A DNA stretch of 27,127 nucleotides from the IMG/VR virus record IMGVR_UViG_3300048930_001175, positions 1 through 27,127 of that record; one strand, 5' to 3'. The notes under the pieces were generated by a model. It was given only the letters and a program-made list of their open reading frames with translations, did no database searches and was not told the DNA's origin. Below, one piece after another: positions 3,073-17,812 of the stretch (within the stretch, counting starts at the first letter, position 1; each line of letters starts with the position of its first letter). The DNA comes from a virus. The position numbers and the translations under genes were made by a program.

Positions 3073-3759
3073 ATGCGGAAAGATCTTATCTCCTTTGTAT
3101 CGGGAATTGTGTTGGCCCTTTTTGTAGGGGGCCTTCTGGGCGCATCTTTGCTTGCGAATATTGCCGGCTCTAGCCCGCACCCCGCACTTCAATGCGATTC
3201 TGCCAAGGCAAGCGACAGTTCTGAATGGCTCGGATTCTTGGGCGCCATCATAGGAGCGGCTGCCACAATCACTGCTGGTTCGATTGCATGGTTCGTGGCG
3301 CAGCCACAGATTAAAGCCATAACGTCCGAGCATCTCGGCCGTCAGGTGCGGCTGCTTCGAGATCTCGACAACTTTGTAAATTTGATCATGAGCGTTGCGC
3401 TCTACAATAAGGAGCAAGCCAACCGCGATGCGAGTACGTTCGGGGAAAGCAAAACCTACCGCATGTTTCCAGTATCTTGCCCGCTTCCCCATGCCGACGA
3501 TTGGCGGCTGCGAGACCAAGTTTTGAGAGATGTAATCAAGGCTTTCGATCTCGGATATTCCTTCGGAGCTGAGCATTTTCCAACACCCAGGCCTGATCGC
3601 GCGGCAGTCAAAGCAGCCAGCAACATCATTGACGCCTGCGAACAGGTACGGCGCGTAGTTCGCCATGATCTTCAAGAACTTGGCGTTGATCTTTCCATTG
3701 CGACACACGGGCAAAGATTTGCTGAAACAGCCCACCTTCGCGCGGCCAGGGAAGATTGA
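3073..3759 (+). CDS. Two-TM membrane protein of unknown function (accessory)
   Basis: This 228-residue protein has two hydrophobic segments, about residues 6-33 (around GIVLALFVGGLLGASLLANI) and 50-75 (around GFLGAIIGAAATITAGSIAW). A long, mostly soluble helical C-terminal domain follows. No catalytic motif was recognised. GC content is clearly lower than in the flanking genes, which suggests separate acquisition. The gene runs against the operon. It fits exactly between the methyltransferase (stop 2 bp away, convergent) and the C5-methyltransferase remnant. The ATG at 3073 is preferred; a TTG at 3046 is in frame but lacks a clear ribosome site. A role in lysogenic conversion or phage exclusion is inference from position and topology. 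Confidence 0.75.
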   Translation: MRKDLISFVSGIVLALFVGGLLGASLLANIAGSSPHPALQCDSAKASDSSEWLGFLGAIIGAAATITAGSIAWFVAQPQIKAITSEHLGRQVRLLRDLDNFVNLIMSVALYNKEQANRDASTFGESKTYRMFPVSCPLPHADDWRLRDQVLRDVIKAFDLGYSFGAEHFPTPRPDRAAVKAASNIIDACEQVRRVVRHDLQELGVDLSIATHGQRFAETAHLRAARED

Positions 3760-9704: not shown

Positions 9705-10211
9705 TCAGCCCACCACGCGCAGCGGCTTGGCGGCGCAGGACGGGCCGGCGGCGCGCACCGCGGCGAGGCCGGCGCGAAAGCCGCGCACGCCCTCCTCCAT
9801 GGTGGAGGCCGCGCGGTCGAGCGCCTCCGCCTCGGCGGGGGTGATGGTCCCGTCCTCCAGCGCCGAGGCCATGTGGATGGAAAGCTCGCCCTGCGCCCGC
9901 AGCAGCGCGGAATGGCGCGCATTGATGGAGGCGGCCGAGGTCATGGCCGCCTCGTCCGTCAGTCGGCGCCCGTGCGCCTCGGCCATCACGGTGGTGACCA
10001 GCGGCAGGCCGCAGTCCGCCTCCAGCGCATAAGCGGAGGCGAGGTCGATCACCTCCGGGTGGCTCGCGTGCTGCCAGCGCGAGACTTCGCTCTTGGAATG
10101 GGCGGTGATGTCGCCCGCGCGGACCACGCCGCCGCAATGGCGCACGAGGTCGCGCGTCGCCGCCTTGATGCGCAGCACGAAGGGATCGGAAAGGGGATGC
10201 GGCTCGTCCAT
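9705..10211 (-). CDS. Phage DNA-binding regulatory protein
   Basis: The 168-residue protein starts MDEPHPLSDPFVLRIKAAT and contains a probable HTH (GGVVRAGDITAHSKSEVSRW). A long Ala-rich helical C-terminal half follows. This layout recurs in regulators of alphaproteobacterial prophages, but I know no experimentally defined member. GAGG lies 6 nt before the ATG. Twin TTCCC-N5-GGGAA palindromes about 30-75 bp upstream may be its operator. It may act as a CII- or Q-like switch on the downstream primase operon; that is inference. The 159 bp between its stop and the SLATT-like stop is AT-rich and holds no gene I can support. Confidence 0.7.
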   Translation of the reverse strand: MDEPHPLSDPFVLRIKAATRDLVRHCGGVVRAGDITAHSKSEVSRWQHASHPEVIDLASAYALEADCGLPLVTTVMAEAHGRRLTDEAAMTSAASINARHSALLRAQGELSIHMASALEDGTITPAEAEALDRAASTMEEGVRGFRAGLAAVRAAGPSCAAKPLRVVG

Positions 10212-10241
10212 GGCAGCCTCGTGGTGTCAAGCGAAAACGCG

Positions 10242-10285
10242 TTTCCCTGTCCGGGAAAACGCAGTGCGTTTTCCCGGTGTGGGAA
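10242..10285. promoter_or_regulatory. Overlapping palindromic operator sites
   Basis: TTTCCC-TGTCC-GGGAAA occupies 10242-10258 and TTCCC-GGTGT-GGGAA occupies 10271-10285, centres about 28 bp apart. The segment between them forms a nested 27-bp palindrome (10251-10277) with arms CCGGGAAAACGCA and TGCGTTTTCCCGG. It lies between two leftward genes, just before the regulator at 9705-10211. No U-run follows the stem, so an operator fits better than a terminator. Confidence 0.6.
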
Positions 10286-10895: not shown

Positions 10896-11167
10896 GCCGC
10901 CTCCTCCCGCGCGGGGGCGTCGTCATTGGCGGCGGCGGGCGGCAAGGGGCGCGGGATATCGGCGGGCACGTGAAGCCACATGAGGCGCTCGGCTGTGATG
11001 CCCGCAATGCCGAGCCGCCCGGCCGAAGCAATGAGCTTCGGCCAGTAGGCCACAGGGACAGAACCCCTGCGCTTCATCTCGCTGGCGGTCGAACTGCTCT
11101 TGCCGATGACGCGGGCGAAAGCCGCGACACCGCCATAGGCTTCGATCAGGTCGCTGACGGTCTCCAT
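10892..11167 (-). CDS. Cro-like repressor, carph-isopro HTH type
   Basis: The 91-residue protein has an HTH near the N-terminus (LIEAYGGVAAFARVIGKSSS) continuing TASEMKRRGSVPVAYWP. This is the pattern of small Cro/YdaS-like proteins annotated as carph-isopro. The C-terminal tail is Pro/Ala-rich. It is the first gene of the leftward operon and divergent from the CI-like repressor, the usual Cro position. Its ATG lies only 7 bp from the end of a TATATT -10 box and has no Shine-Dalgarno, so the mRNA is probably leaderless or nearly so. It should bind the adjacent operator and oppose CI. Confidence 0.82.
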   Translation of the reverse strand: METVSDLIEAYGGVAAFARVIGKSSSTASEMKRRGSVPVAYWPKLIASAGRLGIAGITAERLMWLHVPADIPRPLPPAAANDDAPAREEAA

Positions 11168-11174
11168 GGGAGAA

Positions 11175-11223
11175 AATATACATGCAACATGTTCATCATG
11201 TCAACATGACACGTGTGTACACG
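11175..11223 (-). promoter_or_regulatory. Leftward early promoter with CI/Cro operator
   Basis: On the minus strand a perfect -35, TTGACA (11199-11204), is followed after 18 bp by TATATT (11175-11180). The promoter is covered by repeated CAACATG/CATGTT half-sites, and a CGTGT-GT-ACACG inverted repeat lies at its distal end. Positions 11179-11208 match the reverse complement of the operator at 12335-12378 at 29 of 30 bases. Confidence 0.82.
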
Positions 11224-11241
11224 TTTCGTGATGATGTCCGC

Positions 11242-11862
11242 ATGCCCGAATCAATGCACGATAGGCTTCGCAGAGCCCGCACAGAGGCCGGATTTTCCTC
11301 CGCGCGCGCGGCCGCGCTGCGCTTCGGTTGGAAGCCCTCGACTTACGCCGCCCACGAGAACGGCCAGAACCGCTTCGATGAAACGGTGGCCCGGGAGTAT
11401 GCACGGCGGTTCAAGGTTTCGCCAGGCTGGCTGCTTGGCCTGGAAACGCCGCCGCCCCCAGCGCCCGCCAGGCTCGTGCCGGTGGTCGGCTATGTGGGGG
11501 CGGGCGCCGAGGTGCATCTGGTCGATGACCACGCCAAGGGCGCGGGCCTGGACGAGGTGCCAGCTCCCCCTTCCGTCAGCCGCGATTGCGTGGCTGTGAA
11601 GATTCGCGGAGATTCCATGGAGCCGCGTTTCTTCGAAGGCGAAATCCTTTTCTACGACAAAGTCTATTCGACCCCTGAACAGCTGCGCGCCCTGATCCGG
11701 CGCGAATGCGTCATCACGCTCGAAGACGGCCGCGTCTTCGTCAAGCGACTGCTGGCAGGCTCACGCACATCGACCTGGACACTCTGGAGCTACAACGCCG
11801 AGCCCATTACGGACGCACGCATCAAATGGGCGGCGCCGGTCGATTGGCGCTATTCAGGCTAG
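11242..11862 (+). CDS. CI-type lysogeny repressor (XRE HTH + S24 peptidase)
   Basis: The protein holds the phage in lysogeny and should self-cleave when RecA is activated. The N-terminal HTH reads MHDRLRRARTEAGFSSARAA, then LRFGWKPSTYAAHENGQ. A Pro-rich hinge is followed by a LexA/CI S24 domain with cleavage-site-like GYVGAGAE, the catalytic Ser in GDSMEP near residue 125 and the Lys in RVFVKRL near residue 166. At about 206 residues it is of normal size. An ATG at 11182 is in frame but lies inside the operator. ATGs at 11242 and 11254 are the realistic starts, without a clear ribosome site. It lies between the two mirrored early promoters. Confidence 0.9.
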   Translation: MPESMHDRLRRARTEAGFSSARAAALRFGWKPSTYAAHENGQNRFDETVAREYARRFKVSPGWLLGLETPPPPAPARLVPVVGYVGAGAEVHLVDDHAKGAGLDEVPAPPSVSRDCVAVKIRGDSMEPRFFEGEILFYDKVYSTPEQLRALIRRECVITLEDGRVFVKRLLAGSRTSTWTLWSYNAEPITDARIKWAAPVDWRYSG

Positions 11863-11864
11863 GC

Positions 11865-12305
11865 TCATCGAAACCGGGCCGGAAGCGAACGCCGGTAGAT
11901 CTTCTTGAATAGCGCCTGCGCCTGCTCGGACGCCGTGGCGAGCTCAAGGTCGTCGAGAGCACCGCAAGCGTTCTTGAAGGCCATTGCGTCAGTTGCGTCG
12001 ACCTTACTGCTGCCCGACGCCTGGATAACGACGCGCCAAGCGCAGCTGAGCGCAGCATTCACCTTTACAGCGCCGTCGCAGCCGGTGGAAAGACAATAGG
12101 CCACGTTCCTCTGCGACTGGTAATCGCCACGGAGCGCCTTCGGCATTTCCTGCACGAATTGGTCGCGCGAGGCCTCGCAGAATTGACCCTGCATGCCCGA
12201 GGCCGTGCACATCCGAAGATGCTCCTCCGGAGACTGGGCGCGGGCTTGGCACGGCGCCATGAGCGTTGCCAGGAACAACAACCATCGCATGAGCCCCACC
12301 CTCAC
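11865..12305 (-). CDS. Small secreted Cys-containing protein, possible conversion gene
   Basis: The 146-residue protein has a signal peptide (MRWLLFLATLMAPCQARAQS), predicting a mature periplasmic protein of about 120 residues. The mature part has several cysteines (CTASGMQGQFCE, YCLSTGCDG, LSCAWRV, ACGALDD) that could form disulfides. No domain is recognised. GTG at 12305 is chosen because GGAGG lies 5 nt upstream. It converges on the repressor gene (stops 2 bp apart). Its 5' end adjoins the right-hand operator, so the repressor might influence it. A periplasmic protein beside cI is a usual place for a lysogenic-conversion factor; the role is inference. Confidence 0.72.
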   Translation of the reverse strand: MRVGLMRWLLFLATLMAPCQARAQSPEEHLRMCTASGMQGQFCEASRDQFVQEMPKALRGDYQSQRNVAYCLSTGCDGAVKVNAALSCAWRVVIQASGSSKVDATDAMAFKNACGALDDLELATASEQAQALFKKIYRRSLPARFR

Positions 12306-12334
12306 ATTTACCTCCGCGGGATGATAAGGCGCGT

Positions 12335-12381
12335 CATGTACACGTTACATGTTGACATAATGAACATGTTGCATGTACATA
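12335..12381 (+). promoter_or_regulatory. Rightward early promoter with CI/Cro operator
   Basis: A perfect -35, TTGACA (12352-12357), is followed after 18 bp by TACATA (12376-12381). The same 18-bp spacer, differing by one base, occurs in the leftward promoter. The whole segment 12335-12378 is an inverted near-copy of 11179-11223, so the same repressor should close both early promoters. Confidence 0.8.
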
Positions 12382-12409: not shown

Positions 12410-12745
12410 ATGCACCTTCCCGACCAGCTTTCCCCGCCCGAAGCGGCGGATGCGGTTCTCAACCTCGCCAGCCTCGGCGAGGTTCTCGACCGGCTCTCCA
12501 ACGCCATCCGGAAGCTTGAGGGCTTCACCTTCCATCGCCAGCCCGAGGCGGTGAAGGCCGCAGACGAGGGCGGGGAGGAGGCCAACCGGTTGCTCGCCCA
12601 TCTCCAGACGGAGATGGCCGACACCGCCGCCACCATCCTCGCCACCATGCCCGTTGCCGCAGAGCGCATCGCCAAGGCGCAGGCGGCTCTCGCGGCCACG
12701 CTGGCCGCCGCCGCCGCGGTCGAGGGCACCGGGGAGGCCGCGTGA
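12410..12745 (+). CDS. Hypothetical helical early protein
   Basis: The 111-residue protein is mostly amphipathic helix with a long Ala-rich C-terminus, consistent with a coiled coil. No domain is recognised. It is the first gene after the rightward early promoter, where phages often keep small host-takeover or anti-repression proteins. The ATG at 12410 is preferred because GGGGA precedes it at good spacing; ATG at 12398 is in frame. The stop overlaps the next start (TGATG). Confidence 0.65.
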   Translation: MHLPDQLSPPEAADAVLNLASLGEVLDRLSNAIRKLEGFTFHRQPEAVKAADEGGEEANRLLAHLQTEMADTAATILATMPVAAERIAKAQAALAATLAAAAAVEGTGEAA

Positions 12746-14493: not shown

Positions 14494-14741
14494 ATGAGCA
14501 CCGCCGCCGCAAACTCAAGGATCGACCATCTCGAACGGCGCCGCCGCGAGACGGCTGCGGCGTTTTTCAAGGCCGCGCGCCGGCATGCCCCGCGCGCGCC
14601 CTCGCCGCCCGGCTGGTGCGCGCCACCTGCGACGTGCTGCGCGAGGAAATCCGCGCGGCAAGGCGCAAGGCCCAAGCCCGCCGCATCAACCGCGAGGCCA
14701 AGGCCATCACCGCCGACCTGTTCGGGGACCAGACATCATGA
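14494..14741 (+). pseudogene. Small basic protein split by a frameshift before dnaN
   Basis: Translation from ATG 14494, with GGAG upstream, gives MSTAAANSRIDHLERRRRET and continues as a normal helical protein until about 14590. It then turns into an Ala/Pro/Cys-rich run. The -1 frame from there reads ALAARLVRATCDVLREEIRA and ends ITADLFGDQTS at 14741, overlapping the dnaN start (ATGA). One missing base in the GC-rich run near 14583-14600 would explain this. The restored protein would be about 82 residues, strongly basic and helical. Alternatives are a -1 slip or a shorter gene starting near 14613. Confidence 0.55.
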
Positions 14742-15853
14742 AACTCACCGCCGAGCGCGACGCGCTCCTCTCCGCCGTCGAGCGGGCCGCCCGCGTGATC
14801 GAGCGGCGCAACACCATCCCCGTGCTCGGCACGATGAAGGTCGTGGCGGAGAAGGGCCGCCTGGTGCTCACCGGCACCGACCTCGACATGGAGGTGACCA
14901 CCACCTGCCCGGCCGAGGTGGCCCAGGCCGGCGCCGCCGCCGTGCCGCTCACGGCCGCCGACTTCCTGCGCAAGCTGCCGGCCGGCGCGCAGGTGGAGAT
15001 CACCGCCGAAAAGGGCCACGCCACGCTCAAGGCGGGCCGCAGCCGCGCCACACTCAACACGCTGGACGTGGAGGATTTCCCGGAATTGTCCGCCGTGGCC
15101 GGCGAGGCGGCCGAGTTCCCGCTCGCGGCCTCCAGCCTCGCCGCCATGATCGAGCGGGTGTCGTTCGCCATCTCCACCGAGGAGACGCGCTATTACCTCA
15201 ACGGCATTTACCTGCATGGCGCCGTCTGCGAGGACGGCCCGCTGCTGCGCGCCGTGGCGACGGACGGCCACCGCCTGGCACTGCACAACATCATCGCGCC
15301 CGAGGGCGCCCATCCCATGCCGGGCGTGATCGTGCCGCGCAAGGCCGTCGCCGAGATCGCCCGCCTCATCAAGCCGCTGGGCAATGAGGCGGTGACGCTG
15401 CGCGTGAGCCCGACGCGGCTCTCGCTGACCGCCGGCGTCACCACGCTGGCCACCAAGCTCATCGACGGCACCTTCCCGGACTATGACCGCGTCATCCCCA
15501 AGGACGGCGAGTGCCGCGCCCTCGTGGACGTGGCGGCGCTGGATGCCGCCGTGGCGCGGGTCTCCACCGTCTCCAGCGAGCGCGGGCGGGCGGTGAAGTT
15601 TTCCTTCGCGGAGGGCCTCCTCACCCTCTCCGTTACCAATCCCGACACGGGCGAGGCGCGCGACGAGGTGGAGGCCGAGTGGTCCGCCCCGCCGCTGGAG
15701 ATCGGATTCAACGCCGGCTACGTGGCCGACATCCTCGGCGCCTTGCCCGGAAAGGCCGCGCGGCTCGCCATGAAGGATCCCGGCTCCCCCTGCCTCATCA
15801 CCGCCGAGGTCGACACCGCGTCACTCTTCGTGCTCATGCCGATGCGGGCGTGA
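14738..15853 (+). CDS. dnaN: Phage-encoded DNA polymerase III beta sliding clamp
   Basis: This 371-residue protein has the full length of a bacterial clamp, with all three domains. Typical segments are VIERRNTIPVLGTMKV, YYLNGIYLH, ATDGHRLALH, GTFPDYDRVIP and the C-terminal VLMPMR. It would encircle DNA and tether polymerase. The phage segment carries no polymerase or clamp loader, so it probably competes with or replaces the host clamp on host machinery. It is coupled to the broken upstream gene by ATGA. It seems too complete to be a remnant, and the flanking phage genes argue against it being the chromosomal copy. Confidence 0.95.
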   Translation: MKLTAERDALLSAVERAARVIERRNTIPVLGTMKVVAEKGRLVLTGTDLDMEVTTTCPAEVAQAGAAAVPLTAADFLRKLPAGAQVEITAEKGHATLKAGRSRATLNTLDVEDFPELSAVAGEAAEFPLAASSLAAMIERVSFAISTEETRYYLNGIYLHGAVCEDGPLLRAVATDGHRLALHNIIAPEGAHPMPGVIVPRKAVAEIARLIKPLGNEAVTLRVSPTRLSLTAGVTTLATKLIDGTFPDYDRVIPKDGECRALVDVAALDAAVARVSTVSSERGRAVKFSFAEGLLTLSVTNPDTGEARDEVEAEWSAPPLEIGFNAGYVADILGALPGKAARLAMKDPGSPCLITAEVDTASLFVLMPMRA

Positions 15854-16439: not shown

Positions 16440-16697
16440 ATGGCGCGCGACCATCACGATGTCCTGCCGATAAGCCTGCCGCCGCGCGGCCTCTCGCGCG
16501 TGGAGGCGGCCGCCTATATCGGCGTCTCGCCCAGCACATTCGACCAGTTGGTGAAGGATGGGCGGATGCCGCCAGCGAAGAGAATTAATTCCCGCACGGT
16601 CTGGGACCGCAAGCAGCTTGACGCCGCGTTCGATGCGTTGCCGGATGGCGGCCGGCAAGAGGACCGCGACGATCCGTGGGCGCGGGTCGCGGTGTGA
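16440..16697 (+). CDS. xis: Excisionase / AlpA-like HTH protein
   Basis: The 85-residue protein contains a MerR-like winged HTH (GLSRVEAAAYIGVSPSTFDQ) followed by LVKDGRMPPAKRINSRTVWD, the signature of phage excisionases and AlpA regulators. It should bend DNA at the att site and steer integrase toward excision. GGAGGTGAGG directly precedes the ATG. It sits just before the integrase, the normal xis-int order. Confidence 0.85.
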   Translation: MARDHHDVLPISLPPRGLSRVEAAAYIGVSPSTFDQLVKDGRMPPAKRINSRTVWDRKQLDAAFDALPDGGRQEDRDDPWARVAV

Positions 16698-16711
16698 CAG
16701 GCGGCGTGCCG

Positions 16712-17812
16712 ATGCTCGACCGATTGCAATATGTCTATGAGGACATGGACCGCCACGGCAACGTGCGCATCTATGTCTGGCGCGGCAAGGGGCACGCGAA
16801 GATCCGCATTCGCGAGACACCCGGGACCAAGGAATTCCGCAAAGCCTATGAGGCCGCGATCGAGAAGGCGTTTGCTGCCGCGGCGGAGAAGCCCGAGGAG
16901 AGCAAGCCCCTCGATCGCACGCCGAAGCCCGGAACCTATCGCTGGCTATGCCTGCGCTTCATGGCCGAGAGCGCGGCCCACAAGCGGGACAGCGCGCGTA
17001 CCCGCCATGTCCGCAAGCTGGTCCTGGAGAGCACATTCGAGGAGCGCGTCGCTCCCGACGAGACGGCGATCTATGCGGACTTCCCGCTTGATCGGCTGAC
17101 TGTCAAGGCCATGCGCGTGCTGCGCGACCGGAAGATCGCCACGCCCGAGGCCGGCAACAGCCGCATCAAGAACCTGCGCAAGGTGTTCGCCTGGGCGATC
17201 GAGGAGCAGATTCCCGGCATCGCAGCCAACCTTGCCAGGGACGTTCCCTACTTCAAGTCGACCAGTGGCGGCTTCCACACATGGACGCTCGACGAGATCG
17301 AGCAATATGAGGCGCGCCACCCGATCGGCACGAAGGCCCGCCTCGCGCTCGCGCTCCTGCTCTACACGGGCGTGCGCCGCTCCGACGTCGTTCAGCTCGG
17401 CCGGCAGATGATCCGCAACGGGTGGCTTCGCTTCACCGAGGTGAAGGGCAAATCCCGAATGGTGAAGGAGCGCGACATCCCCCTTTTGCCGCAGCTTCAG
17501 GCTGTCATCGCGGCCACGCCGGGCGAGCACATGACCTTCCTGGTGACCGAGTTCGGCGCACCGTTCACCGACGCCGGCTTCGGCAATTGGTTTCGCGATC
17601 GATGCAACGAGGCGGGCCTCCCGCGATGCACGGCGCATGGCCTGCGCAAGGCCGGCGCCACCATCGCCGCCGAGAACGGGGCGACCGAGCACCAACTCAT
17701 GGCCATCTATGGCTGGGAAAGCCCCAAGCAGGCCGCGCTCTACACCCGGAAAGCCAACCGCAAGCGCCTCGCCGGCGACGCGATGCACCTGGTGGTGCCG
17801 GCCAAACGGTGA
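16712..17812 (+). CDS. int: Tyrosine recombinase (phage integrase)
   Basis: The 366-residue enzyme should recombine attP with a tRNA attB. The catalytic Arg lies in LLYTGVRRSDV near residue 222. The beta-hairpin Lys region is VKGKSRMVKERD, HGLRK gives the His-x-x-Arg near 308-311, AIYGWES has Trp at the usual His/Trp position, and the nucleophile is the Tyr of ALYTRK near 343. An N-terminal arm-binding and core-binding region precedes these. ATG at 16712 has AGGCGG 7 nt upstream; GTG at 16694, overlapping the xis stop, is possible. The att core lies 90 bp downstream. Confidence 0.95.
   Translation: MLDRLQYVYEDMDRHGNVRIYVWRGKGHAKIRIRETPGTKEFRKAYEAAIEKAFAAAAEKPEESKPLDRTPKPGTYRWLCLRFMAESAAHKRDSARTRHVRKLVLESTFEERVAPDETAIYADFPLDRLTVKAMRVLRDRKIATPEAGNSRIKNLRKVFAWAIEEQIPGIAANLARDVPYFKSTSGGFHTWTLDEIEQYEARHPIGTKARLALALLLYTGVRRSDVVQLGRQMIRNGWLRFTEVKGKSRMVKERDIPLLPQLQAVIAATPGEHMTFLVTEFGAPFTDAGFGNWFRDRCNEAGLPRCTAHGLRKAGATIAAENGATEHQLMAIYGWESPKQAALYTRKANRKRLAGDAMHLVVPAKR

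Follow-up and report, generated by a model that had tools for sequence, protein, structure and literature searches.

Mirrored operator blocks predicted around the repressor gene of a lambda-organised temperate phage, and their recurrence among its relatives

The mirrored repeat and its operator-like sites

In the virus record IMGVR_UViG_3300048930_001175, a gene for a CI-type repressor (11242-11862, + strand) is flanked on either side by copies of one sequence in mirror orientation, which raises the question of whether a single repressor closes two early operons from these copies. The whole record of 27,127 bases was analysed and is referred to as the window. We conclude, with a probability of about 0.9, that the region is the predicted immunity region of a temperate phage organised like lambda, in which one CI-type repressor would act at both operator blocks and close both early operons. 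The host is probably an alphaproteobacterium.

The two copies form a 41-nt inverted repeat with 90 % complementarity between a left arm at 11176-11216 (oR-like block) and a right arm at 12340-12380 (oL-like block), the longest of the 27 pairs found when a 3-kb region was compared with itself for inverted repeats. Within the arms, 11179-11208 and the reverse complement of 12348-12377 agree at 29 of 30 bases. The first-pass annotation had recognised this match, which is confirmed, though it placed the right-hand copy at 12349-12378, one base off. Only one further inverted 30-mer pair at 25/30 or better is among the matches listed for the window, a single hairpin with its centre near 10264. When the region preceding the repressor gene was aligned, with gaps, to the reverse-complemented downstream region, the score was 64, and 60 dinucleotide shuffles scored no higher than 31. 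The arms enclose two genes, that of the repressor and, on the opposite strand, a secreted-protein gene (11865-12305, − strand), the coordinates of which agree with those given earlier.

Comparison of the repeats of relatives yielded the palindromic code AACAYG-NNN-CRTGTT, and five operator-like sites in the window resemble it. Three precede the repressor gene, namely O-a (TACATGCAACATGTT, 11179-11193, 1 mismatch to AACAYGNNNCRTGTT), O-b (AACATGACACGTGTG, 11203-11217, 1 mismatch) and O-c (TACACGTTTCGTGAT, 11218-11232, 2 mismatches), and two are on the far side, O-b' (TACACGTTACATGTT, 12339-12353) and O-a' (AACATGTTGCATGTA, 12363-12377), each with 1 mismatch. The centres of O-a and O-b are 24 bp apart and those of O-b and O-b' approximately 1.14 kb apart, and the spacing of O-c is the same in the related loci L004, L005, L017, L018, L030 and L031. 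At up to 2 mismatches, the remainder of the window holds only two matches, single sites at 3453 and 5840.

Operator-like sites among relatives

Relatives were gathered by similarity of the repressor protein alone, and grouping the repressors at 90 % identity gave 72 clusters. Upstream operators were present in 61 of these, and for 54 of the 61 the operator alignment across related phages, which the first-pass annotation had proposed, places the same code downstream of the repressor gene as well, downstream sites being counted within 2 kb of the repressor stop codon. The mirrored repeat around the repressor gene was also found in L004 and L005 (the repressors of which are 73 % identical), L006, L009, L010 and many others. 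The repeat sequences agree within one phage and vary between phages, and L010 has mirrored sites with another operator sequence. Rhizobium phage RHph_I3_18, which was held out of the motif definition, has two upstream and three downstream sites, and three of the five are perfect.

Mirrored blocks with different sequences were also found in Mesorhizobium phage vB_MseS-P1 and Paracoccus phage Pyei1, which have more distant repressors. When checked individually, phiLM21, Caulobacter phage DMCA and Pyei1 did not contain the code, and at the DNA level the region showed no similarity to phage records. As a separate observation, Ruegeria phage 45A6 (L103), vB_MseS-P1 (L105) and Pyei1 (L110) share a similar layout with other operator-like sequences, and lend themselves to a comparison of repressor recognition helices with operator codes.

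The repressor and the predicted promoters

The repressor belongs to phrog_4 and contains HTH_3 and Peptidase_S24 domains. Six aligned relatives all retain Ala87-Gly88, Ser125 and Lys168, and judged by these residues the protein bears the hallmarks of CI/LexA self-cleavage. In a fold search, its structural model (predicted local distance difference test score, pLDDT, 80.8) had the lambda and 186 repressors as the best matches among solved structures, and the relative placement of the two domains is uncertain (predicted template modelling score 0.60, large whole-chain root-mean-square deviation). A search of the sequences of solved structures with the repressor alignment gave no match, though the fold search succeeded.

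Both arms contain TTGACA directed outward, at 11204-11199 on the − strand and 12352-12357 on the + strand, each followed by an 18-nt spacer. The candidate leftward early promoter (pR-like, TTGACA-18-TATATT, 11175-11204, − strand) has 11 of 12 matches, 5 of 6 of them in the −10 box, and a predicted start at 11167. The candidate rightward early promoter (pL-like, TTGACA-18-TACATA, 12352-12381, + strand) has a perfect −35 box. The first-pass annotation, which credited each copy with TTGACA, an 18-bp spacer and a −10 box, was right about the first two in both copies and about the left-hand −10, which is good; the right-hand −10 is poor. A predicted repressor promoter (pRM-like, ATGACA-18-GATGAT, 11206-11235, + strand) ends six bases ahead of the repressor ATG, with a start expected at about 11242, and is similar in L004, L005 and L018.

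In 46 of the 48 loci with TTGAC in reach, 34-39 nt separate the start codon of the gene in the Cro position from the first base of the −35 box (37 nt in the window), and this distance places the predicted transcription start at the ATG, giving a leaderless message. The Cro-position and repressor transcripts are thus both predicted to be leaderless. Such messages are unusual and not new, as the cI and cro messages of PY54, mapped by rapid amplification of cDNA ends, are leaderless (PMC4488713).

O-b overlies the −35 boxes of both divergent promoters, and O-c overlies most of the repressor −10. With this placement, negative self-control is likelier than lambda-style activation from oR2, and, judged from the spacing, the repressor more likely limits its own synthesis.

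The proposed switch

The best explanation of the locus draws on what can be read directly in the DNA, namely the repeat, the operator-like sites and their recurrence, the outward promoter boxes, the gene order and the repressor domains. A self-cleaving CI-type repressor would bind AACAYG-NNN-CRTGTT sites on either side of its own gene, at O-a, O-b and O-c in the oR-like block and at O-b' and O-a' in the oL-like block. O-a and O-b would cover the leftward early promoter, serving the Cro-position, CII-like and replication genes, and O-a' and O-b' the rightward early promoter, serving the genes for a sliding clamp, a nuclease, an excisionase-like protein and an integrase. As O-b and O-c would also cover the repressor promoter, the repressor is probably self-limiting. 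DNA damage would lead to repressor self-cleavage and open both operons, and the secreted-protein gene would probably have an inward promoter, a mirror image of that of the repressor. What we infer in this scheme is binding and the order in which the sites are filled, the transcription starts, repressor self-cleavage and expression of the cargo gene.

Some points weigh against this explanation. The motif was derived from the very relatives used for counting it, which makes the enrichment, from 0.096 sites per kb elsewhere in the same loci to 10.6 per kb within 150 bp upstream of the repressors, and from a background of 0.067 per kb to 1.02 per kb downstream, partly circular; the site density in the rest of each locus, the constant spacings and the one held-out phage serve as controls on this circularity. 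TTGACA is directed outward upstream of the repressor in 59 of 77 loci and downstream in 70 of 77 (inward in 4 and 7, respectively), and because TTGAC belongs to the operator half-site its conservation is no independent evidence for promoters. The rightward −10, TACATA, is weak by the Escherichia coli consensus (3/6), and a third right-hand operator is degenerate, with 3 mismatches. The lambda CII box TTGC-N6-TTGC does not occur beyond chance (20 one-mismatch matches in comparison to 25.7 expected), and in other phages CII may recognise a different box. The comparison nevertheless lends strong support, in the 54 of 61 clusters and in the outward TTGACA counts, to the first-pass proposal that one repressor would close two outward early promoters in the manner of oL and oR of lambda.

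Alternative explanations

The most durable alternative is that the main job of the blocks is to form a repressor-bridged DNA loop that controls the repressor gene and, as the first-pass annotation had suggested, the enclosed secreted-protein gene. Lambda CI loops oL and oR, the repressor model resembles lambda repressor, and the window has two strong mirrored blocks separated by about 1.14 kb. However, the spacing differs widely among relatives, the extremes being a few hundred bases and over 2 kb, and repression is already explained by direct overlap with the promoters. Moreover, the gap between the repressor and the far operator is below 300 bp in 22 of the 54 clusters, leaving little or nothing between them, and elsewhere the enclosed open reading frames vary by phage; hence control of the secreted-protein gene is not what the pairing is for. 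A simpler route to control of that gene is suggested by the right operator block, which adjoins its putative promoter region. We therefore consider looping as the main function unlikely.

It is considerably less probable that the main protein bound at the repeats is the Cro-position protein or a host factor rather than the repressor. Lambda Cro and CI share sites, and 50 loci have inherited the Cro-position gene together with the operators. Against this, the loci were collected by repressor similarity, and those with distant repressors (L010, L103, L105 and L110) have different mirrored sequences, which fits co-change of repressor and operator, though Cro-position proteins may change too. Finally, near-identical 30-bp cores more than 1 kb apart might have been left by a local duplication in inverted orientation, or be a site of recombination, with no regulatory role, but this can be set aside for practical purposes, as 54 repressor clusters show the same placement and spacing with sequences that vary from phage to phage, and the arms contain palindromes and outward promoter boxes.

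The secreted-protein gene

Under the preferred explanation, a repressor acting directly at both blocks, the secreted-protein gene (phrog_5882, function unassigned) is optional cargo in the position of lambda rex. A single-sequence search of viral contigs found no close relatives of the protein; a search with an alignment that included two phage homologues found the family in 62 other viral contigs. In Rhizobium phage RR1-A, the relative is a lone opposing gene among tail genes. In L112, L123, L131, L138, L139 and L147, it directly follows, on the same strand, a gene encoding an S24-domain (repressor-type) protein. A repressor-profile screen of the secreted-protein loci gave no match at an E value of 1e-4, and it was weaker matches together with Pfam that identified S24-domain neighbours in six of the loci examined. 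This arrangement suggests repeated capture of the secreted-protein gene as lysogeny cargo, and repeated attachment to S24-domain genes fits expression in the lysogen. A role for the protein in superinfection exclusion is a reasonable guess. Its structural model (pLDDT 57) was too poor for use.

The gene has a ribosome-binding site, GGAGGT, before its GTG start codon at 12305. A candidate −10 box for an inward promoter, TATCAT (12321-12326, − strand), occupies the exact mirror position of the repressor −10. On the minus strand, a 5/6 match is given by 0.08 % of positions in the window and by 0.7 % locally, and the −35 box is poor. An inward promoter that mirrors the repressor's own is thus suggestive only. 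A similar −10 was seen in L006 and L031, which have an opposing cargo gene. The mirrored −10 was rejected as a general feature of the family, as L004 and L005 do not have it, and it is proposed for this phage only. Rather tentatively, the right block may be a functional mirror of the left, with an outward lytic and an inward lysogeny promoter, so that the secreted-protein gene would be controlled in step with the repressor in a symmetric four-promoter cassette. In L004, a third right-hand operator-like site, approximately 1564-1578 past the repressor start, adjoins the start of an opposing cargo gene of another kind than that in the window.

Gene order and comparison with known phages

The leftward operon encodes a carph-isopro protein in the Cro position (family NF046037, 10892-11167, − strand, predicted leaderless), a CII-like activator (phrog_101, 9705-10211, − strand), primases and a methyltransferase. 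The rightward operon begins with a gene of unassigned function (12410-12745, + strand, from open reading frame and annotation), and includes those for a nucleotide phosphatase, a homologue of the DNA polymerase sliding clamp (phrog_947, 14633-15853), a nuclease, an excisionase-like regulator and a tyrosine integrase (16676-17812, + strand). By annotation, this gene order is the pR and pL arrangement of lambda, Cro function being assigned from position. Homologues of the carph-isopro protein hold the same, apparently leaderless, position in 49 related loci, which suggests a Cro role for the family. A sliding clamp is also annotated near the repressor region of Pyei1 and in Rhizobium phage 16-3. 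Just upstream of the CII-like gene, 10238-10278 contains two overlapping hairpins, one of them followed by TTTT on the − strand; tR1 occupies this position in lambda.

Phage 16-3 is the nearest characterised relative, and its record annotates OL1/OL2 with PL and OR1/OR2 with PR flanking gene c. It shares with the window the outward PL and PR, int and xis beyond PL, an S24-type repressor and a repressor −10 close to the annotated start codon (seven bases before it). However, its operators are ACAA-N4/6-TTGT rather than AACAYG-N3-CRTGTT, and the window code was not found in them at up to 3 mismatches. The C repressor of 16-3 aligns with that of the window in the S24 half only and not over the full length, and there is no cargo gene between c and OL.

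For lambda, the details of which are established knowledge, the shared features are the gene order, two operator blocks with outward promoters, a CI-type repressor, a CII-like gene, an accessory gene in the rex slot and the 24 bp between the O-a and O-b centres. In contrast to lambda, there are two right-hand sites in the window instead of three, O-b sits on the −35 of the repressor promoter (centre at about −32) where lambda oR2 is further upstream, the Cro-position gene is predicted to be leaderless, the accessory gene is opposite to the repressor gene, and the operator sequence is unrelated. Judged by these comparisons, the phage would operate in the manner of 16-3 and lambda, with operators of neither type.

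In the telomere phages N15 and PY54, OL differs in being placed upstream of repA, the repressors and operators are others, and the prophages are linear plasmids. RHph_I3_18 (GenBank accession number MN988542) shares the operator code, which flanks its annotated repressor C gene on both sides, but the repressor is more distant (36 % over part of the protein) and the operators are unannotated in the record.

Significance

The switch is ordinary in principle, and what is new is the operator code and the breadth of its recognition. A predicted code and switch layout are now available for a broad group of phages, comprising 54 repressor clusters with named hosts that include Bradyrhizobium, Chelatococcus and Rhizobium, for which the stock of known phage operators is small. 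In a 2025 study, Sinorhizobium prophages yielded no operators of the lambda type or of the 16-3 type (PMC12429752), and this gap is only partly addressed here, as phiLM21 also does not have the present code. With the code, immunity groups could be tested from sequence, and it gives the carph-isopro family a likely role, in the Cro position. The slot beside the repressor collects accessory genes, which may be superinfection-excluding.
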